NCBI GenBank assembly: GCA_002840505.1
Contig: PHBC01000009.1
Location: 1-64,000 of the forward strand
DNA length: 64,000 bases
Reading direction: 5' to 3'
Origin: Deltaproteobacteria bacterium HGW-Deltaproteobacteria-2
GTDB lineage: Bacteria; Desulfobacterota; Syntrophia; Syntrophales; Smithellaceae
Shown here: in pieces, positions 37,065 to 54,809 of the stretch
Layout: each line of letters starts with the position of its first letter
Numbering within the stretch: position 1 is the stretch's first letter
Translations under genes and position numbers: made by a program
Notes under the pieces: generated by a model
What the model saw: only the letters and a program-made list of their open reading frames with translations
The model's database searches: none
Told to the model about the DNA's origin: nothing

Positions 37065-37934
37065 ATGAAATACGGAATTATCGCTAATCCTGTTTCCGGC
37101 AAATGTTCTCTGGATGATAAACGCAAAATTTTGAATGAAGTAGCCGGTATTCTGAAAGATGTGACCATCGCAGGTTTGGATACAAAATCTCCGGAAGAAT
37201 TCAGTCAATGTGCTTGTGAACTTTCCCGGAAAGTGAAGATACTGCTTGTGGCCGGAGGTGATGGAGCATTTTATCTGGTAATGAACAGTGTTTCCAAGGA
37301 TGTGCCCTTGGGATATTTGCCTTTTGGTTCTGGTGATGTATTACGGCACACGTTTAATTTGCCGCGTTGCCCCAGGGAAAATGCCCGTTTTATTCAGACC
37401 GCAAAGGAACATTTCGTAGACGTCATCTGTTGTGACGGGAAGACGAAAGCTTTGTTCGCAAGTATTGGCATTGAGGGAAGTATTCTGCTGGAACGGGATG
37501 AGTATTTAAAAAATAACTGGCGCGGTCTTACGGCCTATGCATTGGCGACGCTTAAAGTTTTGTTTGGCGGTTATGTTAACGCGGATTTGCGGATTTCAAT
37601 GAATAATAAAGAAGTGACCGCTTCCCACTCTCTGACTGCTGTTATCACAAAACTTCCCTTTTATGGATACGGCTTTAAAGTCGTGCCACAAGCTCAATTT
37701 GATGACGGATACCTGCATCTCCTGATACTTAACGCGGGACCGGTTAGCACGCTATATGCTCTTGCAACGTCTCTTCTGGGAGGAAACAGAATAGGTGAGT
37801 ATTATAAGTCCAAAGAAATTAATATCACTTCTTCGACGGAGCAGTTACTACAGCGCAACGGCGATCCGGAAAAGGAAAAACGAACTAATTTTTCTTTCAA
37901 AGTTTTACCCAAAGAATTGAAATTGATCTTCTAG
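37065..37934 (+). CDS. Diacylglycerol kinase-family lipid kinase
   Basis: 289 residues, YegS/DgkB/LCB5 fold. NPVSGK is at residues 7-12, the nucleotide-binding VAGGDGAF near residue 62 (the usual GGDGT ends in Ala here), and YLPFGSGDVLRHTF near residue 85. It phosphorylates a lipid alcohol, diacylglycerol or similar. It precedes the accessory island on the same strand by 49 bases, so it may belong to it functionally as a lipid-acceptor enzyme, but that is only positional. Confidence 0.85.
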   Translation: MKYGIIANPVSGKCSLDDKRKILNEVAGILKDVTIAGLDTKSPEEFSQCACELSRKVKILLVAGGDGAFYLVMNSVSKDVPLGYLPFGSGDVLRHTFNLPRCPRENARFIQTAKEHFVDVICCDGKTKALFASIGIEGSILLERDEYLKNNWRGLTAYALATLKVLFGGYVNADLRISMNNKEVTASHSLTAVITKLPFYGYGFKVVPQAQFDDGYLHLLILNAGPVSTLYALATSLLGGNRIGEYYKSKEINITSSTEQLLQRNGDPEKEKRTNFSFKVLPKELKLIF

Positions 37935-37983
37935 CAAATTGATAATAACAACAACTGGTAATTAACAGCAAAAGGTATTCTTT

Positions 37984-39312
37984 ATGAAACAATTCAGTCT
38001 GACTGTATCGGAGAGTAACCGGCCGTTTGCTTTGAATGGTTTTAACTTTCCCGATTTCATAAGTCCTTCCATACACAAAGGAGAAACGGCTCAAACTCAT
38101 TATTTATTTCAATCATCAAAACGTTCGGTTATTTCTCTGCGTGTTGATCTCAAAGGCGAGGGAAAGAATTGTGAACCGGACCTGGTAAAAGAAAAATGTA
38201 AATGGTCGGTAGATAAGGATAAATTTCCTTATGGACAAACAGAGAGTCAGTGGTGGGAATATTGTCTTGCTCCGCATAGCTATCTTCCTCTTGAAAATAG
38301 CTTGATTCAGGTGGGATTGAATCTATTCAACCGCTTTTTACACATAGATTTTAGTTCTCAGTGTGCTAAATTAATTGATCCCGAAATCGGAAATGAGATG
38401 CTTTCGACAACCAACTGGTTTGATAAAACGACGGGCGAATTATGGTTTGCATCATGGCCGGTTGAAGGAACCGCTCGGCGTATTTTGAAGCCGCGGGAAA
38501 ATATCCGCGTAACGATATGGAAATCTTCCCTTCAGAAAAAAAGCATCGATCAGGTATGGCAAGGAGATTTCAGCGATTCATTGCACCAGCTGTTGTTAAG
38601 CTCGGACCGAAAATTTCTTGTTTTGACTGAACTGGGTTTGTATTCTGAAGAAAATGTTTCTGCCGAATCAGAAAATCAAAAAAGATCAGTTGAAAAACAT
38701 AAGCGCAGAAGAGAATTGATTTCATCAAGAATACTTATTTTAAATCTGAAAACGGGAGAGGAATGGCGATTGCCCATTACAACTGCGGGACATGTGGAGT
38801 TTGATCCTGACCATCAGGATGTCTGTTACGTTTCCTGTCACAATATCGGGCTTATCGGAGTCAAAGTTGGTGTCTTCGGAGCCGGTGTTGTAAAGAAACT
38901 TCGCTTGGGAAAAAACGGTCCTGAGGCGGCGGGAGAATTTACGCATCCCGATTTTCATCGGATTACAACGCACATAGTCTTTCGCCATAGGGGGAAAACT
39001 CTTATTGGTGTCAGCGGTTATCCGGATAAAGTATTTCTAATTGACGCTGCCTCAATGAAACTTTTTAAAATTATAGAGCTGGAAAAGGGTGAAAAGGTCG
39101 ATGTTTTAAATTCACCTCATCTTTGTCAGCAGGATAGTTATGGAATAGCCGCTTCAGAAGACGGCGAGTTTGTTCTTGCTGCGGGCACGGGCTTTATCAG
39201 TGTAGCTTCAATTGAAGAGGGACGATTTTCTATTAAAAAAGAAATTGAAGGTTATGATTCCCGTTCATGTTTTACCGGACACCTTGGTTCTTTCAATGCT
39301 CTGAAGGCATAA
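37984..39312 (+). CDS. Hypothetical protein, probable beta-propeller
   Basis: 442 residues with no signal peptide, so cytosolic. About residues 150-440 show repeated four-strand units typical of beta-propellers: ELWFASWPVEGTARRIL, FLVLTELGLYSE, HVEFDPDHQDVCYVSCHNIG, THIVFRHRGKTLIGVSGYPD, YGIAASEDGEFVLAAGTG. A charged insert (SAESENQKRSVEKHKRRREL) interrupts one blade. No catalytic residues are recognised. It ends one base before the chorismatase-like gene, implying co-translation and a shared pathway. It could be a scaffold, or a lyase of the propeller type. Confidence 0.7.
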   Translation: MKQFSLTVSESNRPFALNGFNFPDFISPSIHKGETAQTHYLFQSSKRSVISLRVDLKGEGKNCEPDLVKEKCKWSVDKDKFPYGQTESQWWEYCLAPHSYLPLENSLIQVGLNLFNRFLHIDFSSQCAKLIDPEIGNEMLSTTNWFDKTTGELWFASWPVEGTARRILKPRENIRVTIWKSSLQKKSIDQVWQGDFSDSLHQLLLSSDRKFLVLTELGLYSEENVSAESENQKRSVEKHKRRRELISSRILILNLKTGEEWRLPITTAGHVEFDPDHQDVCYVSCHNIGLIGVKVGVFGAGVVKKLRLGKNGPEAAGEFTHPDFHRITTHIVFRHRGKTLIGVSGYPDKVFLIDAASMKLFKIIELEKGEKVDVLNSPHLCQQDSYGIAASEDGEFVLAAGTGFISVASIEEGRFSIKKEIEGYDSRSCFTGHLGSFNALKA

Positions 39313-39313
39313 A

Positions 39314-40369
39314 ATGGAACAAAATTTAATATTACAGGAAGACAGTTTTTGTCTCGAATTCTTTAAAGGAGACGGAAATATTGTTCAAAAAAACTCTGCA
39401 TGGCGGGAAGAACTGTTTTCTAAAGATAATATATATATTTTACAGGAAACAATAATCGTTCCGCCCGATTTGATTGGTGAGGTAAATGATTATTCTGCTC
39501 AAACCATTGCTCCATCGCGATGTAACAAGCCGTTAGTGTTTATTGGCAGTTCTGAACTTCCCGTTCAATACGCGTCAATTGCAGCAAGAATAGATAGAGA
39601 GAAATCGGTTGTTGATAAAAACAACCAAGGAATAAAAATCACTGCGGATAAATTAAACCTTTTATACAGCGCGCCCATATTAAGCAGAAAAGGAAAAGAT
39701 AAACATCTTTTTGCTGACGCCTTCCATCAGATAATTGAGGTTCTTCGTGGTTTCCAGATGAAGGAATCGACGATTGCGCGCACATGGCTTTTTATGAGAA
39801 ACATTCTCGATGATTATGAAGATCTGAATAAAGCCAGAAAAGAATTCTTCGCGAAATGGAATTGGGCCGCTAATCATTTTCTGCCGGCAAGCACCGGTAT
39901 TCAAAACCGTATTATCGGCAATGAAATCCTGGCATTTCAATTCTGCGCTTTTTCCGGCGATAATGTCGCTATAAAACAAATTTCATCACCGTTGCAAAAT
40001 GAACCAACCGCATACGGCAAATTGTTCAGCCGTGCTGTTGTTGTTAAATTTTCCCGATCTAAATTGCTGTTGATCAGCGGCACAGCTTCGATAAACAAAG
40101 AGGGGGATTCGGTCTATATAGGAGACTTTAATAGTCAGATGAAATTTACACTCGAGATCATATCCGCTATCTTGCAACAGGAAGGTTGTGATTATTCTAA
40201 TATAGCTCAAGCAATCATTTATCTAAAAAGAAGTGAAGATATACGCTCCTGTATTGCTATGCTTGATAAGATGGGATTTCCGCGAGACAGAGCGCTATTC
40301 CAGCTTGGCGTTGATATATGCAGAGATAATTTGTTGTGCGAAATCGAAGTCACTGCGGTGATTGTCTAA
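39314..40369 (+). CDS. Chorismatase-like (FkbO/Hyg5/XanB2-type) protein with RidA-like fold
   Basis: 351 residues. Family hallmarks: RTWLFMRNILDDYEDLNKAR near residue 156, FLPASTGIQ near 194, a RidA-like C-terminal half with LISGTASINKEGDSVYIGD near 256, and the closing motif DICRDNLLCEIE near 336, whose Glu is the general-acid candidate in characterised members. Such enzymes hydrolyse or eliminate chorismate to dihydroxycyclohexadienoate or 3-/4-hydroxybenzoate; which product is made here cannot be read reliably. GAAGG precedes the ATG. It follows the propeller gene without a gap. A decayed partial copy lies at 41589-41717. Confidence 0.78.
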   Translation: MEQNLILQEDSFCLEFFKGDGNIVQKNSAWREELFSKDNIYILQETIIVPPDLIGEVNDYSAQTIAPSRCNKPLVFIGSSELPVQYASIAARIDREKSVVDKNNQGIKITADKLNLLYSAPILSRKGKDKHLFADAFHQIIEVLRGFQMKESTIARTWLFMRNILDDYEDLNKARKEFFAKWNWAANHFLPASTGIQNRIIGNEILAFQFCAFSGDNVAIKQISSPLQNEPTAYGKLFSRAVVVKFSRSKLLLISGTASINKEGDSVYIGDFNSQMKFTLEIISAILQQEGCDYSNIAQAIIYLKRSEDIRSCIAMLDKMGFPRDRALFQLGVDICRDNLLCEIEVTAVIV

Positions 40370-40441
40370 AAGTATAGATAGTTATTTTATCGGACATAAA
40401 AGATCTTAAAGAAATATTTATTTATGGAGTGATGGATTACA

Positions 40442-41569
40442 GTGCGGAAACGAGTATTGTCTTGTAGAATGGTTAAAAGTGTTCAGATATTTTATTTAAT
40501 AAAGAAACATATATCTATATTTATCAAGAATATAATTTATTCCGACAAATTAACATATTATCCTGAAGAGGAAAGAAAAAATAGGATAAGCATCTTCATT
40601 GATAATTTTATTTGGATTCTTCACTTTCATCATGCCAATGAATTTTATTACATTTTGGGATTTGATAGAAAGAACTACACACAATATAGACAAAAATATA
40701 TTAACGGAAGACAATGCCGAAAAATAATTGAACGCAAAAAAATGCAAGTTAGTAATAATTCAAAAATATATGATATTGTTATTCATGATAAATTTATAGC
40801 GGCTCAGTACATGGAATCGTTAGGTTTCCCGGTGCCATCAACAATAGCTGTTGTTTATAATAATAAGATCATACTTCCAAAATCAGATGAAGAGTTTCCA
40901 TTGAATTTCATTATAACTGAAAAGAAATCATTGTTCGAAGATTGCATTTGTAAACCCATTGCCGATTGGGCCGGTAGAGGTATATTCCGCATGCAAGCAA
41001 ATGACGGCAACATAATCATAAACAATAGAAATGTTACAAAAAATAAATTTAAAGATTTATTTTCAAATTCAAAATATATAATTCAAGAGAAGATAATTCA
41101 ACACGAAAAAATGTCAAAATTAAATCCAAATTCTATAAATACAATACGATTAGTCACTTGTTTTGATAATCAAACTGTTCAGCCTTTTTCCGCGGGAGTC
41201 AGGATTGGTATGGAAGGAAATATAACTGATAACTGGCATACCGGAGGCATTTTAGTTCGATTAAATATTGAATCGGGTCTTTTGGATAAATATGGTTTTA
41301 CGCATCCTGAACACAGTGGGAAAAAATATGAAAGACATCCTGAAACAGGAGTTAAATTTGATAGTTATGAAATTCCATATTGTCATAAAGCTATCGACTT
41401 GGCAACAAATCTGCATAAATATTTTTATAATACCCATTCTATAGGATGGGATATAGCTATAACTAAAGAAGGGCCGGTTTTTATTGAAGCAAATCAAGGC
41501 TGGGATCCATATATTCATTTAGTCTTAGAAGATAATTTTTTAGATAAATTTTATACATATTTTAAGTAA
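40442..41569 (+). CDS. Sugar-transfer-associated ATP-grasp protein
   Basis: 375 residues. The ATP-grasp core runs from about residue 170: CKPIADWAGRGIFRM (ATP-binding Lys and Gly-rich loop), then NPNSINTIRLVT, WHTGGILVRL and the metal-binding FIEANQGWDP near residue 350. These match the ATPgrasp_ST family, found in polysaccharide and sugar-modification clusters, and predicted to ligate a carboxylate to an amine or hydroxyl. The start is GTG at 40442; an ATG nine codons later is an alternative and neither site is strong. The gene is more AT-rich than its neighbours. Confidence 0.82.
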   Translation: MRKRVLSCRMVKSVQIFYLIKKHISIFIKNIIYSDKLTYYPEEERKNRISIFIDNFIWILHFHHANEFYYILGFDRKNYTQYRQKYINGRQCRKIIERKKMQVSNNSKIYDIVIHDKFIAAQYMESLGFPVPSTIAVVYNNKIILPKSDEEFPLNFIITEKKSLFEDCICKPIADWAGRGIFRMQANDGNIIINNRNVTKNKFKDLFSNSKYIIQEKIIQHEKMSKLNPNSINTIRLVTCFDNQTVQPFSAGVRIGMEGNITDNWHTGGILVRLNIESGLLDKYGFTHPEHSGKKYERHPETGVKFDSYEIPYCHKAIDLATNLHKYFYNTHSIGWDIAITKEGPVFIEANQGWDPYIHLVLEDNFLDKFYTYFK

Positions 41570-41588
41570 GATTGAATTGCTAGTATAA

Positions 41589-41717
41589 GCACCATTTCAA
41601 CTTGGCGTTGATGTATACGGAGACGATTTGTTTTGTATAATCGAAGCAACTGCGATGATGAATGAAATTTCATTACCAATGCGGCAGCTTTTTAAAAAGG
41701 TTTTAAATGATCCTTAA
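41589..41717 (+). pseudogene. Remnant 3' end of a second chorismatase-like gene
   Basis: 43 codons ending in a stop, preceded directly by an in-frame TAA. The translation starts APFQLGVDVYGDDLFC and closely parallels the C-terminus of the intact gene at 39314-40369 (LFQLGVDICRDNLLCEIEVTAVI). The changes Cys-Arg to Tyr-Gly and Glu to Ile hit the conserved closing motif. A Met-Asn-Glu extension follows. No N-terminal part remains; the ATP-grasp gene lies between the copy and the remnant. A duplication followed by deletion is the simplest reading. Confidence 0.75.
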
Positions 41718-41748
41718 GAATCTTTGCTAGTGAAATGAAAGAGAATCT

Positions 41749-42945
41749 ATGGTGAATCCCACTCTACAACCTTTAAAACTGATTAACTCCGTTTATGGCA
41801 CGACTTCTGTTTTTGTAGCTCGATCATCACCAAATGCTTCTCGTTGGCTGCCGCAAAGTGCTATGGAGCGCGATATGGCGACTGCGTCCATGCTGACAGT
41901 CCTCGGAGATATGCCAATTGTTTGCGCTGCTTCGGTATCCACGCCTGATGCCCTGAGTCTTTTACGCGACGCCGGTTTTCAGATCCCGAAGAAAATTTAT
42001 CGTTATGCAGATGTAAAAGACTATATGAAGATTCTCCATGAATTTTTCAATGATGGTTTGATTATGGTAACGCAACATGTTCATCCTCTATCTGAAATGC
42101 CACCGGAGTACTCCTGGATTGCTCCGCCGGTTCTGTCTTTTGTGAATAATAAAGCGAATCTGGGAAATCTTGTTCCGAAAGAAAATGTCCCTTTTCGTGA
42201 AATTGTATCGGTGGATCGAATTGTCAACAGTAAACGGAAATGGATTGCGCCGGTCGTCATCAAAGCAGTTACTGATGAATCAACGGGTGGGGGAATTGAT
42301 GTCCGTATCTGCCTGAGCGGTGATGATGTTAAAAAGGCAGCTTCATATTTCGCGGACTGTTGCTTTGTGGTTTGTGAGGAATGGCTGGATATTCGGCGAA
42401 ATCTATGTCTTCATTACAGTATAACTAATGACGGAAACATCACTTATCTCGGTTTTACGGAACAGGTAAGCGATGATCAGGGTGCCTACTGCGGTAATTG
42501 GCTTGAAGATGGAACTGTATGCCCGGTCGATGCTGTCGAAGTAGGCGCATCAATCGTTCATACAGCTTATGAACATGGATACTACGGCATTGTGGGAATT
42601 GATGTGGCTGTATGGGAAGAGCAGCCTTGCAAGGTATTTGATTTAAATTTTCGCGCCAATGGTTCTACACCTGCAATTCTTTACTCTCAGAGCGTTTATC
42701 GACATCATCAAAAGCCGGTAATCCGTTTGCGCCGTCTGAAAGGCAGTGGAAACTACCGGGATATGCTCAACTCAGTTTATCGAGCGATGACTAAAGGCAT
42801 TCTGCTGCCCCTGGGCAGTTGTGATCCTGAAAAGGGAAATTATGTTGAAAAACATCCTCTTCTGACGGGGATGATTCTCGGCGAGACACGTCAAGATGTT
42901 TTAGAAAATGAACGCGAACTGGCCTCCATGGGTCTGGATATATAA
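41749..42945 (+). CDS. ATP-grasp domain ligase
   Basis: 398 residues. ATP-grasp core: the ATP-binding Lys in APVVIKAVTDESTGGGIDV near residue 170, CEEWLDIRRNLCLHYSI near 222, and the metal-binding VFDLNFRANGSTP near 305 (Asp-Asn-Arg). The fold forms acyl-phosphates and ligates amines or thiols. The substrate is unknown; in this context, coupling an amino acid or hydroxybenzoate to an amine is plausible. It is followed after 22 bases by the first CapK-like gene, whose longest frame even overlaps it. Confidence 0.82.
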   Translation: MVNPTLQPLKLINSVYGTTSVFVARSSPNASRWLPQSAMERDMATASMLTVLGDMPIVCAASVSTPDALSLLRDAGFQIPKKIYRYADVKDYMKILHEFFNDGLIMVTQHVHPLSEMPPEYSWIAPPVLSFVNNKANLGNLVPKENVPFREIVSVDRIVNSKRKWIAPVVIKAVTDESTGGGIDVRICLSGDDVKKAASYFADCCFVVCEEWLDIRRNLCLHYSITNDGNITYLGFTEQVSDDQGAYCGNWLEDGTVCPVDAVEVGASIVHTAYEHGYYGIVGIDVAVWEEQPCKVFDLNFRANGSTPAILYSQSVYRHHQKPVIRLRRLKGSGNYRDMLNSVYRAMTKGILLPLGSCDPEKGNYVEKHPLLTGMILGETRQDVLENERELASMGLDI

Positions 42946-42967
42946 AAACAAAAGGTCGCCTGAAAGT

Positions 42968-44278
42968 ATGAAAATAGTGAAAGTTTATAGTGAAAATGTG
43001 AGACGTTATGGGTTCTGGTTTGTTGATGCTTTGACGGGTGGACATGTTAGAAAATATCTTCATGATTTAAAAGAGAAACTAGGAGGTGAAGCTGATGCTT
43101 CATCAGATGATTTGATAAAGATTCTTAATCATGCTGTCAATACAACAGAGTTTTACAGCGAATACAAGGGTTACTCAAACATCATGGATTTCCCAGTAAT
43201 AAAAAAGAGTCTGGTCAAAGAAAAATATGATCAGTTTATTTCATCAGAGTATAAAACCGAAAAATTATACAAAGTGCAGACCAGTGGCTCCACCGGAGAG
43301 CGTTTTGTAATGCTGCTGAATAAAAAAAAGAGAAAAAGAGTTATTGCCGAACTTATATACTTTCTTGAGCAGTGCGGTTTTAAGTTGGGATACAGGCATG
43401 TTTATGCCAGAGTGTGGTTTGCGGGTAATAAAAAAGCAAAACTGGAACTGATTGCACATAACACGATTATGTTTGATTGTTCTTTTTTATCCGACGAATC
43501 AATGGACATGCTCTATCAAATGCTGCATAAGGACAATTCCATAAAATGCCTGACCGGTTATGCCACTTTTCTTGCTACAATTGCCTCTTATTTTGATAAA
43601 AAGGGATATACGCCGGATATGTTCAGTATTGAAATTGTCATCAGTGGAGCCGAACGTCTGGAACCAGGCGCTAAAATCTTGCTTAAGAAAGTATTCGGCT
43701 GTACAGTTGTTTCGAGATACGGCAACAGCGAAAATGGTTTTCTGGCGCAGCAAACCAATGATGGAGATAAATTCATTTTAAATACTGCTCATTACTTTTT
43801 TGAAACGCTAAAGCTTGATTCCGATGAGCCCGCTTCTTTGGGAGAACCAGCCAGATTAGTGCTGACAGATCTTTATAATTACGCCATGCCGTTAATTCGT
43901 TATGATACAGAAGATATAGTCATAATGGAAATTTCGGCAGAGAATAGTTATCGAAAATATATTTTAACTGAATTGTCCGGAAGAAAGGCGGATATAATCT
44001 ACGACACGCGGGGTAATAAAATAAGTCCTCACTTTGTTGCTTTGACTTTTCGGCGTTATGATAAGTTGCCTCAATTTCAGCTTATTCAGAACAGTCTCAA
44101 ACAATTTACTTTGAAATTAGAAGGCACCCGCGGCCTATATGATGATAATGATTTTAAGGAAACGATCAGGGAACTGGTTGGCCCGGATGCCATTGTCGAA
44201 ATCGAGTACGTAGATAAAATACCGCATCTTTCATCAGGAAAATTTAGAAAAATAATATGCAATTATAAAGTCAATTAG
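42968..44278 (+). CDS. CapK/PaaK-like adenylate-forming enzyme (1)
   Basis: 436 residues, phenylacetate-CoA ligase-related. The nucleotide-binding loop QTSGSTGERF is near residue 100, VVSRYGNSENG near 247, LVLTDLYNYAMPLIRYDTEDI near 295, and the C-terminal catalytic-Lys segment HLSSGKFRK near 426. CapK-type members occur in capsule and glycan clusters and are thought to activate a carboxylate as AMP ester. I start at the ATG at 42968, after the upstream stop. It is a tandem paralogue of the next gene: the N-termini (RRYGFWFVDALTGGHVRK versus RGLAFWSLDALKGRTVKK) align. Confidence 0.85.
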   Translation: MKIVKVYSENVRRYGFWFVDALTGGHVRKYLHDLKEKLGGEADASSDDLIKILNHAVNTTEFYSEYKGYSNIMDFPVIKKSLVKEKYDQFISSEYKTEKLYKVQTSGSTGERFVMLLNKKKRKRVIAELIYFLEQCGFKLGYRHVYARVWFAGNKKAKLELIAHNTIMFDCSFLSDESMDMLYQMLHKDNSIKCLTGYATFLATIASYFDKKGYTPDMFSIEIVISGAERLEPGAKILLKKVFGCTVVSRYGNSENGFLAQQTNDGDKFILNTAHYFFETLKLDSDEPASLGEPARLVLTDLYNYAMPLIRYDTEDIVIMEISAENSYRKYILTELSGRKADIIYDTRGNKISPHFVALTFRRYDKLPQFQLIQNSLKQFTLKLEGTRGLYDDNDFKETIRELVGPDAIVEIEYVDKIPHLSSGKFRKIICNYKVN

Positions 44279-44285
44279 GAATTCT

Positions 44286-45644
44286 TTGGACTTTAAAGTG
44301 GTTGATGAGATGATAGCAAACGCAATGCATAAATTGAGAGGCCTGGCTTTTTGGTCTTTGGATGCTTTAAAAGGCAGAACTGTAAAAAAAGCATACACTG
44401 AGTTGAAAACATTTGATGCTACGGATAGTCGTTCTGCGAGATTTACGGAGCATCAAAAATCAATATTGCAAAAACTTTTGCAACACGCAATTAATACGAC
44501 GAAATTCTATAAAAAAATTCAAAGCAATTGCCTGTCTGACTTTCCGATAATTGATAAAAATATAATCAAAAATCAGCAAGATGATTTTATGTCGAACAAA
44601 TACGACAGAACTAAATTGTTCACTATGACTACAAGCGGTTCAACGGGAGTAAAGCTTACCTGCTATCAAAATGATGAAAAGAAGAAGAGGGTTCATGCAG
44701 AAGTAATATATTATAGCGGAAAAGCAGGGTACTTAGTGGGAGAAAAATTAATTTATCTACGGGCGATTTCGGAAGAAAGCTATAAGTCTAAACTGCGCCA
44801 ATGGATTCAAAATGAGACGTTGCTGGATATATGTAATTTGGATGACAAGCGTATTGAAGATATATTATCCGACATTGACAAGGCATCCCGTTGGGGTTCA
44901 ATGATATTGGCTTATGCGTCGACTTTTGAGGCGTTTAAAGATTACTTTCAGAGAAAAGGAATGTCAAAAGTCGGCAAAAATAAAGTATACGGTATAATTA
45001 GCAGTTCCGAAATGCTTTTTGATGATACCAGAAACATTATATCCAACGCGTTTCACTGCCGCTGCTTTTCACGATACTCTAATCAGGAAAACGGCATCAT
45101 CGGGCAGGATGATATTGAAGATAATGCTTTTATCATCAATGAGGTTCATTACATAGTCGAAGTGTTTAAAATGAATTCGGACATATTGGCAGAGGAAGGA
45201 GAAGTCGGCCGTCTTGTAATAACTGATCTATACAATTACGCCATGCCGATGATTCGCTATGACACAGGAGATATAGGTTCGATTGTCTATATTCAGAGAA
45301 ATGGCGTGACTAAAAAAGCCATAACAAATTTTGGAGGGCGCAGGGTAGATATGGTATTTGATTGTTATGGCAATCGCCTGTCACCACATATCATTACGGT
45401 TAATTTCTGGCAGTTTCCTGAAATTCAGCAATATCAGTTTATTCAGGAAAGTAAAATAAATTATACATTGAAGATTAATACTCAGGACAGATTTGTCAGA
45501 CAAAAGGAAATGGAAGCATTATTAGAAAAATTGCTAGGTGATAAAGCTGTTATAAAGATAGAAGAGGTTGAAGAAATACCTGTATTGGCTTCCGGAAAAA
45601 GAAAATATATTGTAAATAATATGTGCCATAATGATAATAATTAG
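44286..45644 (+). CDS. CapK/PaaK-like adenylate-forming enzyme (2)
   Basis: 452 residues, paralogue of the preceding gene. TTSGSTGVKL is near residue 118, CFSRYSNQENGIIG near 263, LVITDLYNYAMPMIRYDTGDIGS near 310, and the C-terminal PVLASGKRKYIV near 434 carries the candidate catalytic Lys. The start is TTG at 44286 with AGGA about 6 bases upstream, 7 bases after the previous stop. Two closely related tandem copies suggest activation of two related acids, or a division of labour on the same glycan. Confidence 0.85.
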   Translation: MDFKVVDEMIANAMHKLRGLAFWSLDALKGRTVKKAYTELKTFDATDSRSARFTEHQKSILQKLLQHAINTTKFYKKIQSNCLSDFPIIDKNIIKNQQDDFMSNKYDRTKLFTMTTSGSTGVKLTCYQNDEKKKRVHAEVIYYSGKAGYLVGEKLIYLRAISEESYKSKLRQWIQNETLLDICNLDDKRIEDILSDIDKASRWGSMILAYASTFEAFKDYFQRKGMSKVGKNKVYGIISSSEMLFDDTRNIISNAFHCRCFSRYSNQENGIIGQDDIEDNAFIINEVHYIVEVFKMNSDILAEEGEVGRLVITDLYNYAMPMIRYDTGDIGSIVYIQRNGVTKKAITNFGGRRVDMVFDCYGNRLSPHIITVNFWQFPEIQQYQFIQESKINYTLKINTQDRFVRQKEMEALLEKLLGDKAVIKIEEVEEIPVLASGKRKYIVNNMCHNDNN

Positions 45645-45696
45645 TTTGAATGTTTTTGTATAAGTCCATCAAAAACGAAAATAAAAGGTCTATTGG

Positions 45697-46356
45697 ATGG
45701 CAACTAATCGAAGTAAAAATAAATTCTATCTATCCTTCGGCAAACGCGCATTTGATTTGGTTCTGGCTATTCCTGCTGCCATTGTTTTAATACCCGTGTT
45801 TATAATAATTGCTTTTCTTGTACGCTGGAGATTAGGAAGGCCGATTTTATTCAAACAGATGCGTCCGGGACTGTGGGAAAATCCTTTTACAATTTTCAAA
45901 TTCCGAACTATGACCGATGCGCGTGACCAAGACGGCAAAATGCTTCCTGATGATAAACGTCTAACGCGTCTTGGTGCTTTCCTGCGCAAGACGAGTAGTG
46001 ATGAATTGCCAGAATTGATAAATGTTATCAAAGGCGAAATGAGTATTGTCGGGCCGCGCCCCCTGTTTATGGAATATCTGCCATATTATACAAAACGGGA
46101 GCACTTGCGTCATACTGTTCGTCCGGGAATTACGGGATTATCGCAGATAAGAGGCAGAAATTATCTGCCTTGGAATGAACGTCTGGAAATGGACGTAAAA
46201 TATATTGAGATCATTTCTTTTCCTCAGGATATAAAAATTATATTTGAAACTTTCTTCCAGGTTTTGAAAGCAAAAGATGTTGCTGTTTTACCCAGGACAG
46301 TAAGTATTCCTTTGTCGGAATATAGAGAGAAACATAAAGAAAAGAAATCTGATTGA
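45697..46356 (+). CDS. Initiating sugar transferase (PglC/WcaJ type)
   Basis: 219 residues of the bacterial sugar-transferase family, which moves a phosphosugar from a UDP-sugar to undecaprenyl phosphate at the inner membrane. KRAFDLVLAIPAAIVLIPVFI forms the N-terminal reentrant helix. FKFRTM is near residue 67 and DELPELINVIKGEMSIVGPRP near residue 108 has the catalytic Asp-Glu. This is the short form lacking the WbaP N-terminal membrane domain. It anchors the cluster to a lipid-linked glycan. Confidence 0.93.
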   Translation: MATNRSKNKFYLSFGKRAFDLVLAIPAAIVLIPVFIIIAFLVRWRLGRPILFKQMRPGLWENPFTIFKFRTMTDARDQDGKMLPDDKRLTRLGAFLRKTSSDELPELINVIKGEMSIVGPRPLFMEYLPYYTKREHLRHTVRPGITGLSQIRGRNYLPWNERLEMDVKYIEIISFPQDIKIIFETFFQVLKAKDVAVLPRTVSIPLSEYREKHKEKKSD

Positions 46357-46398
46357 TTAAGTGTGAATTTGAAATAACTTTAATTATTATAGGTATAT

Positions 46399-47463
46399 AT
46401 GAATATATTAATAACAGGAATAGGCGGTCCGACGCCGATTGGAATTGCCAAAAGCATACTCCTGAATGGTAAGTCTAAAAGTGCAAGACTTATAGGAGTT
46501 GACTCGAATAAGTATGCTCCGGGTTTATATAACAAAGAACTTTTTGATAAAACTTATCTGATTCCTCATTCTTCAAGTGACAATTACTGGCGCGTTTTGG
46601 AGTCAATTATTTCTAAAGAACACATCGACTATTCTTTCGTCGTTCCTGAATTAGAAGTATTAAAATGGTCTTTAAAAATGAAGACAGGCCGGATACCGTG
46701 TGACTCTCTTCTTCCCGATTATGAAGTAGCAAAGGTTCTATATGATAAATATGAACTTCATCAAAGATTAATTGGTTCTAATTTGGTTCCCGGAACAATA
46801 AAAGTTGAATTAACTCAGATTGAAAAAAATATCGGTAATCCCCCCCCCAATACTTTCTGGGTCCGGGCGGGATTCGGTGCGGGAGCGACAGGATCATTCA
46901 AAATCAATAAAATGGATGATCTTAGAGCATGGATAAAATTAAATCCTCATATTAAAGACTATATTATCAGCGAATATTTGCCCGGTAGAAATTATGCCTG
47001 CAAGATACTTTTTTACGATGGAAAAGCAATCAGAGCATCATGTGCTCAGAGAATTGATTACTTAATGGCTCATGTTGCACCGTCGGGAATTTCCGGAATG
47101 TGTTCAAGAGGAAAACTTATCAATAAACGGGAAATTGTCGACACCTCCATCAGAGCCTTGAAAATCATTTTTGACGGTTGCGGACAGGAACCGCATGGAA
47201 TGTTTACAGTTGATTATCGTGAGGATGAGTACGGAAATCCAAAAATAACCGAAATAAATATTAGACATGTATCGTTCACATTGGCATTTGCTTTATGCGG
47301 AGCAAATTTTGCAGAGGATTCACTGAGACTTTACTTAAATGATTCTTCCTTTGATCGTGCATTTAAAATCTATGAGTTTGATGATGACTATACATTCATT
47401 AGGGGAGTTGATGCACAGATAAAAATTGTAAAGGATTCAGAAATAAAATCTCTTGTTCCATAA
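46399..47463 (+). CDS. ATP-grasp domain protein (CarB-like)
   Basis: 354 residues. The N-terminal Rossmann-like preATP-grasp half has ILITGIGGPTPIGIAKSIL and LIGVDSNKYAPGLY. The ATP-grasp half has FWVRAGFGAGATGSFKI near residue 150 (ATP-binding) and the metal-binding ITEINIRHVSFT near residue 290. It is related to carbamoyl-phosphate-synthase-like ATP-grasps found in polysaccharide clusters. It contains a run of eight C (46844-46851) in a generally AT-rich gene. The substrate is unknown. It lies 42 bases after the sugar transferase. Confidence 0.85.
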   Translation: MNILITGIGGPTPIGIAKSILLNGKSKSARLIGVDSNKYAPGLYNKELFDKTYLIPHSSSDNYWRVLESIISKEHIDYSFVVPELEVLKWSLKMKTGRIPCDSLLPDYEVAKVLYDKYELHQRLIGSNLVPGTIKVELTQIEKNIGNPPPNTFWVRAGFGAGATGSFKINKMDDLRAWIKLNPHIKDYIISEYLPGRNYACKILFYDGKAIRASCAQRIDYLMAHVAPSGISGMCSRGKLINKREIVDTSIRALKIIFDGCGQEPHGMFTVDYREDEYGNPKITEINIRHVSFTLAFALCGANFAEDSLRLYLNDSSFDRAFKIYEFDDDYTFIRGVDAQIKIVKDSEIKSLVP

Positions 47464-47536
47464 ATAATTGATGGTCATAATTTCAAAATACTCTTATGTT
47501 TTAAAAACCTGTCATGAATTTGGATTGTAAAATATT

Positions 47537-49390
47537 ATGTGCGGCATTGTAGGAAAATATTATTTCAATATTAATCAATATGATTCTTCTGATTTGTCCA
47601 GGATGATGAAGGTTATATCCCACAGAGGGCCTGATTCTTCAGGCACTTTTACAGATGACGTCATGGCGATTGGTTTTCAACGCCTCAGCATCATAGATGT
47701 AAATACCGGTGATCAACCCCTCTATAATGAGACAGGGAAAATAGTTCTTGTTGCCAATGGAGAAATCTATAATTTCAAAGAGCTCCGGGCGACACTTCAA
47801 TCTATGGGCCATGTCTTCAGAACAAAGACGGATTGTGAAGTGATCATTCATCTTTATGAAGAATACGGGAATAGTTCTGTAAAAAAATTAAACGGCATGT
47901 TTGCTTTTTGCCTTTATGATTCCGTGAAGAAAATATTGTTGATGGCACGGGATCGCATGGGAATCAAGCCTCTGTATTTCTATCAAAATGACGATGTTTT
48001 GATTTTTTCGTCCGAAATCAAAGGTATTCTCGCTTCGCGTAGAATGTCAGTAAAGCCTGAAGCAAATGTTCTGGATGAATATCTTTGTTTCGGATCTTTG
48101 TGCAATGGAAGAACATTTTTCTCCAAGATTGTCAGTCTGGAACCAGGCTGTCTAGTGGAAGTCACGAACAGAGGAATTCATTCCCAAAGATACTGGATCC
48201 CGGAAATTGTTGAAAGTACTCTTAGCGAAGCTCAGTACATTGAGAAAATAGAGTCTTCCGTGAATAATTCAGTGCAGCGGCAAATGATGAGCGATGTGCC
48301 TCTTGGCAGTCTCCTCAGCGGAGGAGTGGATTCCAGCTGGGTTAGTGTTGTTGCCAATAAATTAGCTCCGGGTATTAAAACATTTACAATCGGTTTCCCG
48401 GACCCGGCACATAATGAAATTCCCTATGCGCGTTTCACAGCCGGATCTTACGGATTTGATCATCATGATTTTGTAAGTGATAATAAGGAGTATGCCGATT
48501 CGCTGGAACAGACAATATGGCATCATGATGAACCGCTTACTTTTCCGAGTTCCGTACAAAATCGTCTGGTTTGTAGATACGCTCGCGAGTTTGTGAAGGT
48601 TGTGTTGACCGGTGAGGGAGCGGATGAATTATTCGGCGGTTATCCGCGTCAATACCTGAGCAAATTACAGAACCAATTCCTGCTGCTGGGGGGTGTAAAC
48701 CAAAGGGTTATCCTCATGGCTTTAAAATTTTTACCATTTAGGAAGATAAAAACATTAAGGAGATTTCTCGCTTTATCACCTTATGAACTCGTTCTCTGGA
48801 ATGCGGCATTTACAGAGAAGGAAAGGATTGCCTGGTTATTCGATAAAGATGAGCCGGATATCTCCATCAGATTAGAGCAATTGAACAAAGTCTGGAATAA
48901 AAACCTTGATACGATTGACAATCTTCTTTTGTTTGATCAGCAGACATATTTGCGTTCGATTTTAAATATGAAAGATAAAATGAGTATGGCTGAATCAATG
49001 GAACTGAGAGTTCCGACTCTTGATAATGAAATGATTTCCATGGCGCACGAGATTCCGGGGGACGTAAAATTGAGAAGATTGCAGACAAAATATTTATTTA
49101 AGAAGGCCGCAGTCAGACATATACCGCGGAAGATAGTGTACAAGAAGAAAATAGGATTTACTATTCCGGTCGATAAATGGTTGAGAGACAAAAATGGAGT
49201 TGGCAGTTTTCTGGATATGCTGATCGATTCATCGGATAAAATTGAAGGAATCAATAAATCCAAACTAGAAAAAGTGATTTGTGAACATAAAAGCGGAACA
49301 CAAAACCATCAAAATATTCTCGGCCACTTGATTTATTATGTTATTTGGCGACAGCAATATATAGATACTAAACCTTTGTCAGTAAACTAA
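47537..49390 (+). CDS. Asparagine synthase-like glutamine amidotransferase
   Basis: 617 residues. An N-terminal Ntn glutaminase domain with Cys2 (MCGIVGKYYF) and RLSIID near residue 51 is followed by a synthetase domain with the pyrophosphate-binding SGGVDSSWV near residue 262 and LTGEGADELFGGYPRQY near 355. Members encoded inside glycan clusters often amidate a sugar acid or form other amides rather than making asparagine; here the cluster context favours that. Free asparagine synthesis cannot be excluded. Confidence 0.9.
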   Translation: MCGIVGKYYFNINQYDSSDLSRMMKVISHRGPDSSGTFTDDVMAIGFQRLSIIDVNTGDQPLYNETGKIVLVANGEIYNFKELRATLQSMGHVFRTKTDCEVIIHLYEEYGNSSVKKLNGMFAFCLYDSVKKILLMARDRMGIKPLYFYQNDDVLIFSSEIKGILASRRMSVKPEANVLDEYLCFGSLCNGRTFFSKIVSLEPGCLVEVTNRGIHSQRYWIPEIVESTLSEAQYIEKIESSVNNSVQRQMMSDVPLGSLLSGGVDSSWVSVVANKLAPGIKTFTIGFPDPAHNEIPYARFTAGSYGFDHHDFVSDNKEYADSLEQTIWHHDEPLTFPSSVQNRLVCRYAREFVKVVLTGEGADELFGGYPRQYLSKLQNQFLLLGGVNQRVILMALKFLPFRKIKTLRRFLALSPYELVLWNAAFTEKERIAWLFDKDEPDISIRLEQLNKVWNKNLDTIDNLLLFDQQTYLRSILNMKDKMSMAESMELRVPTLDNEMISMAHEIPGDVKLRRLQTKYLFKKAAVRHIPRKIVYKKKIGFTIPVDKWLRDKNGVGSFLDMLIDSSDKIEGINKSKLEKVICEHKSGTQNHQNILGHLIYYVIWRQQYIDTKPLSVN

Positions 49391-49523
49391 GTGGTCTTGT
49401 TTCTAAAAATAATTATCTAATATTTATATCAAAAAAGACACAATCATTGTCTGTTCCATATTCAGAAAAAATATGTAATGTATATATTAATTAACGTACA
49501 TTTATGTTTAAGGGAAAAATGGC

Positions 49524-50741
49524 ATGGGAGATTTGGCAATTAATGGTGGTTTGCCCATACGCAAGAAAAAGTTTCTTCCCTGGCCTTTTTATGATCATGA
49601 TGAAATAGAAGCTGTTTATCGCGTACTTCAATCGGGAAATGTTAATTACTGGACGGGAGAAGAAGGTTGTTTATTTGAAAGAGAATTTGCCGCAAACACA
49701 GGCGTAAATTACGCTGTTGCCTTAATGAATGGTACGGTGGCGCTAGAGGCGGCATTGATGGCGTTGAATATTGGAAAAGATGACGAGGTCATCGTAACGT
49801 CGCGTAGTTATATTGCATCGGCAAGTTCTGCGGTTATACGCGGAGCAAAATGTGTCTTTGCCGATGTTGATCGTAACAGCCAGAACATAACGGCGGAGAC
49901 AATAAAGAAAGTCATAACAATTCGTTCACGCGCAATCATTGCTGTTCATCTGGCCGGTTGGCCCTGTGAAATGGATTCGATAATGGCCCTCGCAAAAGAA
50001 CGTGGACTTGCGGTAATTGAAGATTGCGCCCAGGCCTGCGGAGCTTTTTATAAAGGTCGTCCTGTGGGGTCATTTGGTGATGCCGCCGCTTTTTCTTTTT
50101 GTCAGGATAAAATTATGACCACCGGCGGTGAAGGTGGTATGATTTTAACAAATAATGAAGATATCTGGTCGGAAATATGGTCTTATAAAGACCACGGCAA
50201 AAGTTATAAAGCAGTTTACGAAAATAATGATTTTCATCCGGGCCCATCATTTAAATGGCTGCATGAATCATTCGGAACAAACTTGCGTATGACGGAAATG
50301 CAAGCCGCAATCGGCAGGATTCAACTTCATAAATTGCCCCAATGGATAGAAAGACGCAGGCGAAATGCCGATATTTTAAACAAAGCTTTTATAAATATTC
50401 CGGCATTACGTGTAACTATGCCGCCTGATTATATTGGTCATGCCTACTATAAATATTATGTTTTTATAAATCATGAGAGACTGAAATCCGGTTGGAATAG
50501 AGAACGTGTAGCTATTGCAATTAACGCGGAAGGCATTCCCTGTTTCACCGGCAGTTGCAGTGAAATATATCTGGAAAAAGCTTTTGCCGGCACCGGTATG
50601 CGGCCGAAGAAACGACTACCGGTTGCCAGAGAGTTAGGCGAAACCGTCATGATGTTTCTTGTTCATCCGACTTTATCCGAAAATGATATGCGCGATACTG
50701 TTAAAGCGGTGGAAAAAGTTATGGCCGTTGCCGCTAAATGA
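49524..50741 (+). CDS. DegT/DnrJ/EryC1 family sugar aminotransferase
   Basis: 405 residues of the PLP-dependent sugar aminotransferase family. The N-terminus has YDHDEIEAVYRVLQSGNVNYWTGEEG; ALMNGTVALEAALMAL is near residue 70; IEDCAQACGA near 168; and the Schiff-base Lys is in FSFCQDKIMTTGGEGGM near 200. It would aminate a keto-sugar nucleotide, supplying the amine that the adenylating and ATP-grasp enzymes could acylate. AAGGG lies about 11 bases upstream. It converges on the third CapK gene with one base between stops. Confidence 0.93.
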   Translation: MGDLAINGGLPIRKKKFLPWPFYDHDEIEAVYRVLQSGNVNYWTGEEGCLFEREFAANTGVNYAVALMNGTVALEAALMALNIGKDDEVIVTSRSYIASASSAVIRGAKCVFADVDRNSQNITAETIKKVITIRSRAIIAVHLAGWPCEMDSIMALAKERGLAVIEDCAQACGAFYKGRPVGSFGDAAAFSFCQDKIMTTGGEGGMILTNNEDIWSEIWSYKDHGKSYKAVYENNDFHPGPSFKWLHESFGTNLRMTEMQAAIGRIQLHKLPQWIERRRRNADILNKAFINIPALRVTMPPDYIGHAYYKYYVFINHERLKSGWNRERVAIAINAEGIPCFTGSCSEIYLEKAFAGTGMRPKKRLPVARELGETVMMFLVHPTLSENDMRDTVKAVEKVMAVAAK

Positions 50742-50742
50742 A

Positions 50743-52131
50743 TTATTTGTTTTCCCGGTTGTCTCGTTCACGCTTCCATCGGCTGCTCAACTTGCCCAAC
50801 ACCTGATGGAATTTCTTGCCCGGTTCGGGTCGAAGATCATCAACAATTGAAACTTTCAAACGCATTGCCGGATGAAGAATTTTTAAGTTTTCTTCGACCG
50901 CTCGCCAGAGAGAATTTGAATATGCCGGTCCCGGGACAACTCTGATTTCAATTAAGTCATTACCTTCCTGAATAATCTGGAAAACACGGATTGCTTCAAT
51001 CATGCTCCAGTCTTTTTTATCATGAGGTAAAACGGAATTAACGACATTATACATGATTCTTGGTGAAATTTCCCTCCCATCAGGCAGGACGATAAAGTTT
51101 TCATTACGACCTTCCGTAAGACGCATAACCGGTCCGTTAAATCCGCATTGACATTTTCCCGTCTCTAACAGAATTCCCCGATCTCCCGTTTCATAACGAA
51201 TAAAGGGCATAGAATAATTATATAAATTTGTAATAATCAGATGTCCTTCACTGCCCGGCGGAACGGGAATCCCTCGCTGATCAACGGTCTCAATCCACAC
51301 AGTTGCGGTGTTGGGATGCATAAGTTCCGGATTGGCGGGACATTCCCAGGCAAGATTTCCACCTTCCTCATTATTGTAATAGTCAGCGACGCGGCAACGG
51401 AAGACATTTTCCAGCAATTTGCGTACATGAGGGAATAGAAGTTCCGCTCCGCCGGTTATCAACCGGGGCGAAGGAGGTATAATTTCTTTTTCGCGTAAAG
51501 CGTTGGCCAGATTCCAATATGCTGACGGACGACCACCCATAATGGTTGGTTTTATACTCATAAGAATCGATATCTGCTCTTCCATGGGAATATCGCGAAA
51601 AAGTTTGATTATAGTAATAGGCCCGATTTTCTGGACAATTTTAGTAGAACCATCTTTTCTTTCCGGCCCTACATTTACAAGTGTCATCGGACATGTCAGT
51701 GACGTATTTCGTTTATATGCATCAATAATTGTTATCTTGCGAAAAGCTTCTTCCAATCGGTTCTTATAGACTGTTACCGGTGTGCCTGTTGTTCCTGTAG
51801 TATGTCTAATTACAAGTTTTTCAGGGGAAACATCACGACTCAAGTATTCGGCAGGTCCTGCCACCATAATATCCAAACGTTTAATAATGGGTAGATGTGT
51901 CAGATCTTCAGCTTTTCGAATGACTGCCGGATTTACCCCGGTTTTGTCAAAAGTCCGCCTGTAGAAGGGCACATTTTTATAAGCATGAGAGACAATATAC
52001 CGGACTGATCTGTCCACATCTTTCTTGTTTTTGCGCGGTAAAAATCTTGTCCATCCGCTGATCACCAGGCTGCTCCTTTGATATTGAACCCGTTCTTCTT
52101 TTGCGAAAAGAATATAAAAAAAACAATCCAT
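50743..52131 (-). CDS. CapK/PaaK-like adenylate-forming enzyme (3)
   Basis: 462 residues on the opposite strand to its two relatives. HTTGTTGTPVTVYKN near residue 120 is the AMP-binding loop; RVADYYNNEEGGNLAWECP near 265, LIITNLYNYSMPFIRYETGD near 315 and a C-terminal Lys-rich PGKKFHQVLGK follow. An internal CQCG pair near residue 345 resembles the Cys pairs of some PaaK enzymes and is not seen in the other two. More like true phenylacetate/benzoate-CoA ligases than the tandem pair. The start has no clear ribosome site; an ATG further in is possible. Confidence 0.83.
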   Translation of the reverse strand: MDCFFYILFAKEERVQYQRSSLVISGWTRFLPRKNKKDVDRSVRYIVSHAYKNVPFYRRTFDKTGVNPAVIRKAEDLTHLPIIKRLDIMVAGPAEYLSRDVSPEKLVIRHTTGTTGTPVTVYKNRLEEAFRKITIIDAYKRNTSLTCPMTLVNVGPERKDGSTKIVQKIGPITIIKLFRDIPMEEQISILMSIKPTIMGGRPSAYWNLANALREKEIIPPSPRLITGGAELLFPHVRKLLENVFRCRVADYYNNEEGGNLAWECPANPELMHPNTATVWIETVDQRGIPVPPGSEGHLIITNLYNYSMPFIRYETGDRGILLETGKCQCGFNGPVMRLTEGRNENFIVLPDGREISPRIMYNVVNSVLPHDKKDWSMIEAIRVFQIIQEGNDLIEIRVVPGPAYSNSLWRAVEENLKILHPAMRLKVSIVDDLRPEPGKKFHQVLGKLSSRWKRERDNRENK

Positions 52132-52234
52132 GTGTCAATGAAATAAAAAGTACAGAATACGAGACGTGAATGAAATAAATAAAAATGGCTGAACTATGGT
52201 TTAACATATGATACAAATACCTGAGGCAGGTTAT

Positions 52235-53185
52235 ATGGAAAAACATATCCAAGATATAGAGGCACAAAAAACAGGTGGTCCCTTGGTGCTGGAAATACGC
52301 GGCAATTCACTGGATGACGGTCCGGGCATAAGAAGCGTCGTGTTCATGAAGGGTTGCCCTCTTTCTTGCGTGTGGTGTCACAATCCTGAGAGCAAGAAAC
52401 CGGGTCCCGAGTTGTTGTTCGATGCCTCAATATGTGTGTCGTGCGGAACCTGTGCGGAATTGTGCGAGAGCGGCGCGCTTCGCATGAAGAACAAAAAGCT
52501 CATCGTTGACCGGTCTAAATGCAACCTCTGCTTCTCGTGCACCGATTTGTGTCCTTCCGGAGCGCTGGAACGCGCCGGTAAATCCATGACTGTTGATAAT
52601 GTAATCGACGCGGTCATGAAGGACAAACCGTTTTATGACACATCAGGCGGAGGCGTGACTCTTTCGGGTGGCGAGCCGCTCATGTTCATGGATTTTGCGT
52701 CAGAACTTCTTACTGGTCTTAAGAAAAAAGGTGTACATACTATCGTTGAAACCTGCGGCATTTTCAAACTCGAACGCTTCATTCAACTTGTTCTGCCGCA
52801 TGTGGATATGATTTATTTCGACATCAAGCTCATGGATGCCATGCTCTCCGAGCGTTATACCGGCGTGAAAAATGATCTCATTCTGGCAAACTTCCGGTCG
52901 CTTCATGAAATTTCACTAAAAAAACATCCTGATTTTCTTTTGCCGAGAACACCACTGATTCCGGGCATTACGGACACAGATGAGAATCTCAGAGCGATTG
53001 CCGAATTTCTCTCTTCACTCGGGATAGGAAAAGCTGCTCTTCTCGAGTATAATCCGCTTTGGCATGCCAAATTAAATAAATTAGGAAAAGATGAGCAGGG
53101 AACTGGTAAATCACGCGAATGGATGGACAAAAAACACGTGGCTCACTGCAAGGAAATATTCATTTCAGCGGGAATTTCCGTTTGA
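52235..53185 (+). CDS. Glycyl-radical enzyme activating protein
   Basis: 316 residues, radical-SAM protein of the PflA/HpdA/CutD type. GCPLSCVWCHNPES gives the CxxxCxxC cluster (Cys 41, 45, 48). Two further [4Fe-4S] sites follow in a ferredoxin-like insert: CVSCGTCAELCESGAL and CNLCFSCTDLCPSGAL. GGGVTLSGGEPL near residue 142 is the SAM-binding motif. It installs a glycyl radical in a partner enzyme, which is not encoded in this window. I start at the ATG at 52235 (GAGG 9 bases upstream) instead of the ATG at 52208, which has no site. Confidence 0.92.
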   Translation: MEKHIQDIEAQKTGGPLVLEIRGNSLDDGPGIRSVVFMKGCPLSCVWCHNPESKKPGPELLFDASICVSCGTCAELCESGALRMKNKKLIVDRSKCNLCFSCTDLCPSGALERAGKSMTVDNVIDAVMKDKPFYDTSGGGVTLSGGEPLMFMDFASELLTGLKKKGVHTIVETCGIFKLERFIQLVLPHVDMIYFDIKLMDAMLSERYTGVKNDLILANFRSLHEISLKKHPDFLLPRTPLIPGITDTDENLRAIAEFLSSLGIGKAALLEYNPLWHAKLNKLGKDEQGTGKSREWMDKKHVAHCKEIFISAGISV

Positions 53186-54788: not shown

Positions 54789-54809
54789 TTCGGGAATATT
54801 GGGAAAACT

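Follow-up and report, generated by a model that had tools for sequence, protein, structure and literature searches.

What is a chorismatase-like gene doing among genes for a lipid-linked sugar? The question is raised by a stretch of 64,000 nucleotides (the window) from Deltaproteobacteria bacterium HGW-Deltaproteobacteria-2, positions 1 to 64,000 of contig PHBC01000009.1. The window is contig C9 of a 3.28-Mb Smithella-type genome whose nearest named relative is Smithella sp. D17 (Smithellaceae, Syntrophales). The 11 genes at 37984–52131 seem to produce a small aromatic acid and to assemble an amino sugar, lipid-linked and decorated, for the surface of the cell. The gene families, chorismatase residues, insertion and co-occurrence described below are read from the sequence of the window and of related genomes, which carry G numbers here (G301 is the genome taken as D17). 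The genes of the island, with two further features, are as follows.

37984..39312, + strand: PROP, 442 aa, probable beta-propeller, unclassified; partner gene of the chorismatase
39314..40369, + strand: CHOR, 351 aa, chorismatase-like; TIGR04444 E 3.6e-17, under the cut-off
40442..41569, + strand: GRASP_ST, sugar-transfer-associated ATP-grasp between CHOR and LDMS; PF14397 E 2e-47; AT-rich
41570..41748, + strand: probable scar, degraded remnant of the 3' end of another chorismatase gene together with the former CHOR-LDMS spacer
41749..42945, + strand: LDMS, 398 aa, LdmS-like ATP-grasp ligase; NF047900 E 7e-58, under the cut-off
42968..44278, + strand: CAPK1, CapK/PaaK-like adenylate-forming enzyme
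44286..45644, + strand: CAPK2, second CapK-like enzyme
45697..46356, + strand: SUGT, sugar-phosphate transferase with lipid phosphate acceptor; PF02397 E 6e-59; motifs in place
46399..47463, + strand: GRASP3, PylC/carbamoyl-phosphate-synthase-like ATP-grasp ligase
47537..49390, + strand: ASNB, glutamine-dependent amidotransferase of AsnB type; TIGR01536 474 bits against a cut-off of 267
49524..50741, + strand: DEGT, sugar aminotransferase; PF01041 E 2e-94
50743..52131, - strand: CAPK3, third CapK-like enzyme, convergent to DEGT
52208-53185: glycyl-radical activase, not accompanied by its enzyme

The ten plus-strand genes at 37984–50741 follow one another at gaps of 1 to 179 bases when CAPK1 is started at 42968; an alternative start at 42908 gives a longer open reading frame that overlaps LDMS by 38 bases. 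A single base separates the PROP stop codon from CHOR, and one base lies between the convergent DEGT and CAPK3. A previous sequence-only reading of this DNA had described these genes, whose open reading frames were confirmed at their positions, and domain searches agree with its chorismatase-like, three ATP-grasp, three CapK/PaaK, sugar transferase, AsnB and DegT assignments. Its remark that an acyl carrier protein is missing also holds for the island: none was identified and, since no gap exceeds 179 bases, there is no room for such a gene between the island genes. An Rfam scan at gathering thresholds returned two tRNAs and nothing else, and promoter and terminator counts were no better than chance.

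Comparison of the flanks indicates that 37984–52131 lies in an insertion. The neighbouring gene OBG is present in all 17 genomes of the genus, while PROP is whole in six, reduced to fragments in G297 and without a match in the other ten, in all of which the site was examined. Four of these sites can be read across the junction (G309, G307, G299 and G300) and have 4, 13, 821 and 13 bases, respectively, between the flanks. The sequence passes there from the end of DAGK (37934–37943) to window positions 55814–55818 in G309, G307 and G299 and to 54792 in G300; one open reading frame lies inside the 821-base gap of G299, and G300 has unrelated genes further left of the site. At the other sites we found larger rearrangements (G308, G130), contig breaks (G298, G303, G304) or other genes (G310). 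Because the right flanks resume at 54792 or 55814, the insertion as compared extends to 54791 or 55813.

Within this insertion PROP and CHOR are one unit. PROP occurs in 10 of the 51 genomes of the family (in G297 as fragments only) and CHOR in nine (G000, G030, G301, G302, G305, G306, G313, G324 and G348). CHOR stands directly 3' of PROP in all nine family genomes that hold both, at most 21 bases away, one of them with a broken CHOR. This fixed order, together with the location in an insertion, is more than chance. The pair seems older than the island, because the distant Smac51 plasmid (Deltaproteobacteria bacterium Smac51) also holds it: a PROP relative there (26% identity, E 5e-9) ends in a stop codon that overlaps the beginning of the next gene, which is CHOR-like (27% over 201 residues when the two sequences are compared directly). 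The latter did not reach the E 1e-8 threshold set for the collection search and was recognised only as the neighbour of the PROP match. A scan of named genomes for CHOR yielded two loci, one in Smithella sp. D17 (JQOA01000002.1) and a weakly matching one in Intestinibacter (E 8e-5). In a survey of 297 genomes of the phylum we found CHOR in four, PROP in two and LDMS in two, numbers too small for a test of co-occurrence outside the family.

Judged by its sequence, CHOR is a diverged chorismatase-like enzyme. Its C-terminus is RidA-like, an FkbO/Hyg5-like match was obtained, and a profile of nine CHOR relatives matches Hyg5 (5ag3) with E 4e-21 at profile positions 110–347 and FkbO (4bps) with E 1.4e-15 at positions 153–347; these two served for the comparison with named chorismatases. 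PMC7170507 gives Glu-334 as the catalytic residue of Hyg5 and G164, G231 and C318 of Nat-hyg5 as the Gly, Gly and Cys of the Hyg5 type; Hyg5 residue numbers were transferred from Nat-hyg5 by an offset of 9. CHOR carries the catalytic glutamate as E343 and the Hyg5-type (CH-II) residues as G195, G256 and C336, and all four are invariant across 12 aligned sequences, the window's included. FkbO (4bps) has Gly at the position of G195 and Ala at those of G256 and C336. The sequence-only reading would have been abandoned had the product of the gene at 39314 lacked chorismatase active-site residues; they proved to be present in a sequence alignment to solved structures, which is not a structure-based alignment. 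The residues do not fix whether 3- or 4-hydroxybenzoate would be formed, because homologues from Acidiphilium and Parabacteroides also carry all three Hyg5-type residues, and the reaction of a chorismatase is not predictable from alignment alone according to PMC3949708.

It is very improbable, in our view, that CHOR is a Rid-type protein of another function that has ceased to be a chorismatase. Such a protein would fit the TIGR04444 score (62.6 bits, where the cut-off is 325), the long branch that leads to the five other homologues in the CHOR tree, and the N-terminal 100 residues, which cannot be aligned to Hyg5 and are too divergent to judge; the invariance of four of four tested chorismatase residues speaks against it. 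A search with the single CHOR sequence gives Rid-like homologues 102, 97 and 108 bits against 38 bits for Hyg5. CHOR resembles chorismatases of the Hyg5/FkbO/XanB2 type in its RidA-like C-terminus, catalytic glutamate and Hyg5-type glycine and cysteine residues, and differs from them in lying far under the family cut-off and in having a propeller-like protein and amide ligases as neighbours. PMC11888242 deals with chorismatases of the FK506 type.

Other relatives of CHOR were noted in passing. A chorismatase-like 'Rid family hydrolase' of Parabacteroides (L053:9476-10630) lies in a row of porin, imelysin and di-heme oxidoreductase genes, and a hemerythrin gene comes after it. In G174 and G092 (L025:5503-9105 and L026:5356-8938) a distant chorismatase gene has a beta-helix protein upstream and is followed by a large TPR-repeat protein, 69% identical between the two genomes. 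The G174 TPR-repeat protein has a PD40 propeller match, which makes it a second, sequence-unrelated propeller beside a chorismatase.

The description of PROP as a probable beta-propeller is weakly supported by the strand pattern and a low-confidence, propeller-like model, and finds no counterpart in family or PDB matches. Pfam and NCBIfam gave no match to PROP up to E 0.1, a PDB search with a 7-member profile ended at best with two nucleoporin Seh1 chains (E 3.1 and 3.8), and a self-comparison with HH-suite found no internal repeat. Among PROP relatives, Pfam touches AlgF (0.15) and a lactonase propeller (0.25), each in one member of 7. AlphaFold models reached a predicted local distance difference test (pLDDT) score of 34.7 with one sequence and 35.6 with two, and the best 50 of 902 Foldseek matches to the two-sequence model are nearly all beta-propellers at template modelling (TM) scores of ~0.2; so poor a model carries little weight. 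Across eight aligned sequences 44 columns are invariant, among them H201, H270, E272, H286, H321 and H330. The conserved histidine and glutamate columns hint at a possible metal or acid-base site; H98, also conserved, was not counted, being outside the segment that BLAST aligns to Smac51.

The genes that follow the pair encode adenylate-forming enzymes, ligases and sugar enzymes. All three CapK proteins contain the motifs [ST][ST]G[ST]TG, Y-x-N-x-E and GK, which are known as adenylation motifs and read TSGSTG, YGNSENG and SGKFRK in CAPK1; their best NCBIfam scores are 63, 80 and 102 bits against an equivalog cut-off of 300. CAPK2 adjoins CAPK1 also in D17 and, more distantly, in G324. CAPK3 occupies the same end of the island in the window, D17, G030, G302 and G306 (in G306 with one extra open reading frame between) and was not seen in the G324 locus. 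LDMS is a nearly full-length ATP-grasp relative of the Asp-Met ligase LdmS (PDB 7r8p, E 1e-39 over residues 6-391) and differs from it in scoring 196.2 bits on NF047900, with a cut-off of 475, so that it is LdmS-like only. GRASP3 stands directly 3' of a CAPK2-like gene in G324 and G348; CAPK2 and GRASP3 are found together in the window, D17, G324 and, on a separate contig, G348. The product of 40442 is a clear member of the PF14397 sugar-transfer-associated ATP-grasp family, set apart here by a chorismatase in the same gene set; Pfam detects further members in G030 and G313, and BLAST detects others in G302, G305 and G306. ASNB begins with MCG and contains SGGVDSS, and SUGT scores 199 bits on PF02397 against a gathering score of 27, as a PglC-like transferase should.

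Is there a link between the pair and this CapK module? CAPK1 occurs in 8 of the 51 family genomes, always with PROP and CHOR, that is, in eight of the nine CHOR genomes and none of the 42 others (Fisher p 1.4e-8, ignoring relatedness), as the sequence-only reading had anticipated of a single pathway. LDMS orthologues (at least 50% identity) occur in seven family genomes, all with CHOR; this count leaves out G319 and G357, which have LDMS relatives of 27% identity without PROP or CHOR and without window-like CapK neighbours. The distribution of the island genes is patchy across several genera. In G324 the two groups lie apart: contig C8 carries PROP-CHOR at 127.6-129.9 kb, and contig C5 carries SUGT-BKACE-LDMS-CAPK1-CAPK2-GRASP3-DEGT at ~95.8-103.7 kb, in a locus that also contains a Polysacc_synt gene and a Polysacc_synt_2 gene. 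G324 joins G348 with strong support in the PROP and CAPK1 trees; the CHOR tree places the two genomes outside the remaining six members of the family but does not resolve how they group with each other. Given the co-occurrence, and the presence of both groups in G324 although they are on different contigs, a functional link between PROP-CHOR and the CapK module has fair support.

The gene that directly follows CHOR is the changeable part of the island. The last bases of CHOR (40291–40362, 72 bases) are repeated directly at 41588–41659 with 78% identity, and 41570–41748, in which no frame is open any longer, matches the end of CHOR together with the LDMS leader in D17 (77% over 182 columns) and the end of CHOR with its spacer in G302 (67% over 159 columns). 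CHOR is immediately 5' of LDMS in both D17 and G302, and the GC content of GRASP_ST is 29% against 39% for the island. The simplest reading of these sequences is that the older order was CHOR-LDMS and that the AT-rich GRASP_ST (40442) entered by recombination within CHOR. Elsewhere CHOR is followed by a Mur ligase-peptidyl-tRNA hydrolase fusion (L018:15772-17631) and then a PP-loop-like protein in G030, and by AsnB-like proteins in G305 and G306 (the PP-loop-like and AsnB-like proteins were recognised by eye and have no Pfam match). With the ATP-grasp gene of the window, the post-CHOR enzyme types differ among genomes and are mostly amide-forming.

The reading we prefer, to which we give slightly less than an even chance, is that of an exchanged surface-glycan island in which CHOR makes hydroxybenzoate, CapK and ATP-grasp enzymes decorate an amino sugar through amides, and the product is transferred to undecaprenyl phosphate. 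CHOR, with PROP as its constant partner, would convert chorismate to hydroxybenzoate and pyruvate, and DEGT would place an amino group on a nucleotide-linked sugar. The CapK enzymes would adenylate acids (the hydroxybenzoate, amino acids or both) and, with LDMS, GRASP3 and GRASP_ST, form amides on the amino group of the sugar; ASNB might amidate a free carboxyl, and SUGT would pass the decorated sugar phosphate to undecaprenyl phosphate. The decorated sugar could be the first of a longer glycan, whose other enzymes would be elsewhere in the genome. We infer every substrate, the order of the steps and the arrival of the hydroxybenzoate on the sugar. The best-studied CapK/PaaK relatives use aryl acids, and activation of the acid from CHOR by a CapK enzyme is for that reason the most economical link. 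A more specific proposal, possible but clearly short of an even chance, is that PROP-CHOR is a two-gene unit feeding a carrier-free aryl acid into undecaprenyl-linked amino-sugar amides, with the ligase cassette swapped by recombination inside CHOR.

Known systems offer partial parallels. In the Pgl/bacillosamine pathways, the acyl group attached to an amino sugar bound for undecaprenyl phosphate differs between PglB and PglB2 of Neisseria, while the lipid-transfer step stays (PMC6959607); the likeness lies in an aminotransferase-made, N-acylated amino sugar with a variable acyl group. The difference is that acylation here would be by CapK and ATP-grasp enzymes, and that the island has no 4,6-dehydratase; out of the bacillosamine set of 4,6-dehydratase, aminotransferase, acetyltransferase and transferase, the island contains the aminotransferase and the transferase. 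A PglD-like acetyltransferase is present in the modules of G030 and G302 (by Pfam) and G306 (by eye), and the G348 module has a PglD-like fragment just under the Hexapep cut-off. Amino acids have been predicted to be joined, through an amide, to the amino group of surface sugars (PMC2922099); a seryl-tRNA-synthetase-like protein is invoked there, and the portion of that paper available to us does not mention a chorismatase. A tie between a chorismatase and a polysaccharide is claimed for XanB2 of Xanthomonas oryzae: according to a title cited in PMC3949708, its products 3- and 4-hydroxybenzoate serve in the biosynthesis of xanthomonadin, ubiquinone and exopolysaccharide.

Several observations weigh against the island working as one pathway. 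The G324 pair lies away from glycan genes, and G313 has PROP-CHOR without LDMS or CAPK1, its neighbours being TupA-like and PF14397 ATP-grasps and a SPASM protein. D17 CHOR lacks residues 93-227 and is changed in frame beside CAPK1 and CAPK2 that are 94% and 93% identical to those of the window, though the break may be a draft-assembly error. Relatedness inflates the co-occurrence statistic, and the CapK enzymes may equally well activate amino acids. A search of the island found no domain match to a 4,6-dehydratase or to a glycosyltransferase other than SUGT, and PglD-like and CAPK2/GRASP3 genes are not simple substitutes, because G348 has both. Of the single pathway put forward by the sequence-only reading, CAPK1-CHOR co-occurrence and G324 speak for it; the pair on its own in G313, the broken CHOR of D17 and an activase that belongs outside the set do not. 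The genes may instead do two jobs: PROP-CHOR would make a hydroxybenzoate used elsewhere (as a signal, a pigment or a quinone-like compound), and LDMS, the CapK enzymes, SUGT and DEGT would make an aminoacyl-decorated glycan, with CapK acting on amino acids. On this reading, which we regard as unlikely, both groups travel jointly from sharing one exchanged island. It would accommodate G313, the distance in G324 and the intact CapK genes beside the broken CHOR of D17, and a distant chorismatase homologue in Acidiphilium indeed adjoins U32 peptidases, one annotated with ubiquinone biosynthesis; yet G324 holds both groups despite their different contigs, and CAPK1 is absent from all 42 family genomes without CHOR. 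It is quite improbable that the product is a small aroyl-peptide amide and no glycan, in which ATP-grasp, PP-loop and Mur-type ligases have joined hydroxybenzoate to amino acids and for which the sugar genes provide a carrier or resistance handle. The changing, mostly amide-forming enzymes after CHOR (LdmS-like in D17 and G302, Mur fusion and PP-loop in G030, AsnB-like in G305 and G306, ATP-grasp in the window) would suit such a product, but SUGT remains linked to LDMS and CAPK1, as does DEGT wherever it was observed, and the G324 module is inside a polysaccharide locus.

The right border of the functional set would lie at 52131, because neither the activase nor a B12-radical-SAM gene is found in G030 and G306, two genomes that carry the set. 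The activase had been counted as a cluster member, an assignment that we dropped: it is absent at the site in these two cluster-bearing genomes, and a fragment of it, as well as the radical-SAM gene, is present in G130, which has no cluster. The radical-SAM gene was rejected on the same grounds. SDR, DAGK and DUF362 genes were likewise rejected as members, being at the same site in island-less genomes (SDR and DAGK in several, DUF362 in some), and a transposon or integron was set aside, since none of the island genes that could be identified encodes a transposase or an integrase. A different activase occurs in G302, next to an open reading frame of 824 aa that resembles a glycyl-radical enzyme by eye. 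To the right of the site, window 55809-56507 combines a pyrimidine-dimer glycosylase domain with a DUF1722 match and is kept in many relatives.

Chorismatases are known from polyketides, pigments and ubiquinone. Among the matches listed in a search of open-licence literature, no title or abstract joins a chorismatase to such a cluster. The parts belong to known families; their combination and the PROP-CHOR unit appear undescribed within the literature searched. If the preferred reading is true, chorismatases would also supply a building block that is attached to surface sugars, and the unclassified PROP family would gain a partner and a role open to testing. In methane-forming communities, Smithella-type bacteria live as syntrophic partners, and we speculate that the exchange of a surface decoration might affect contact between cells or escape from phages.

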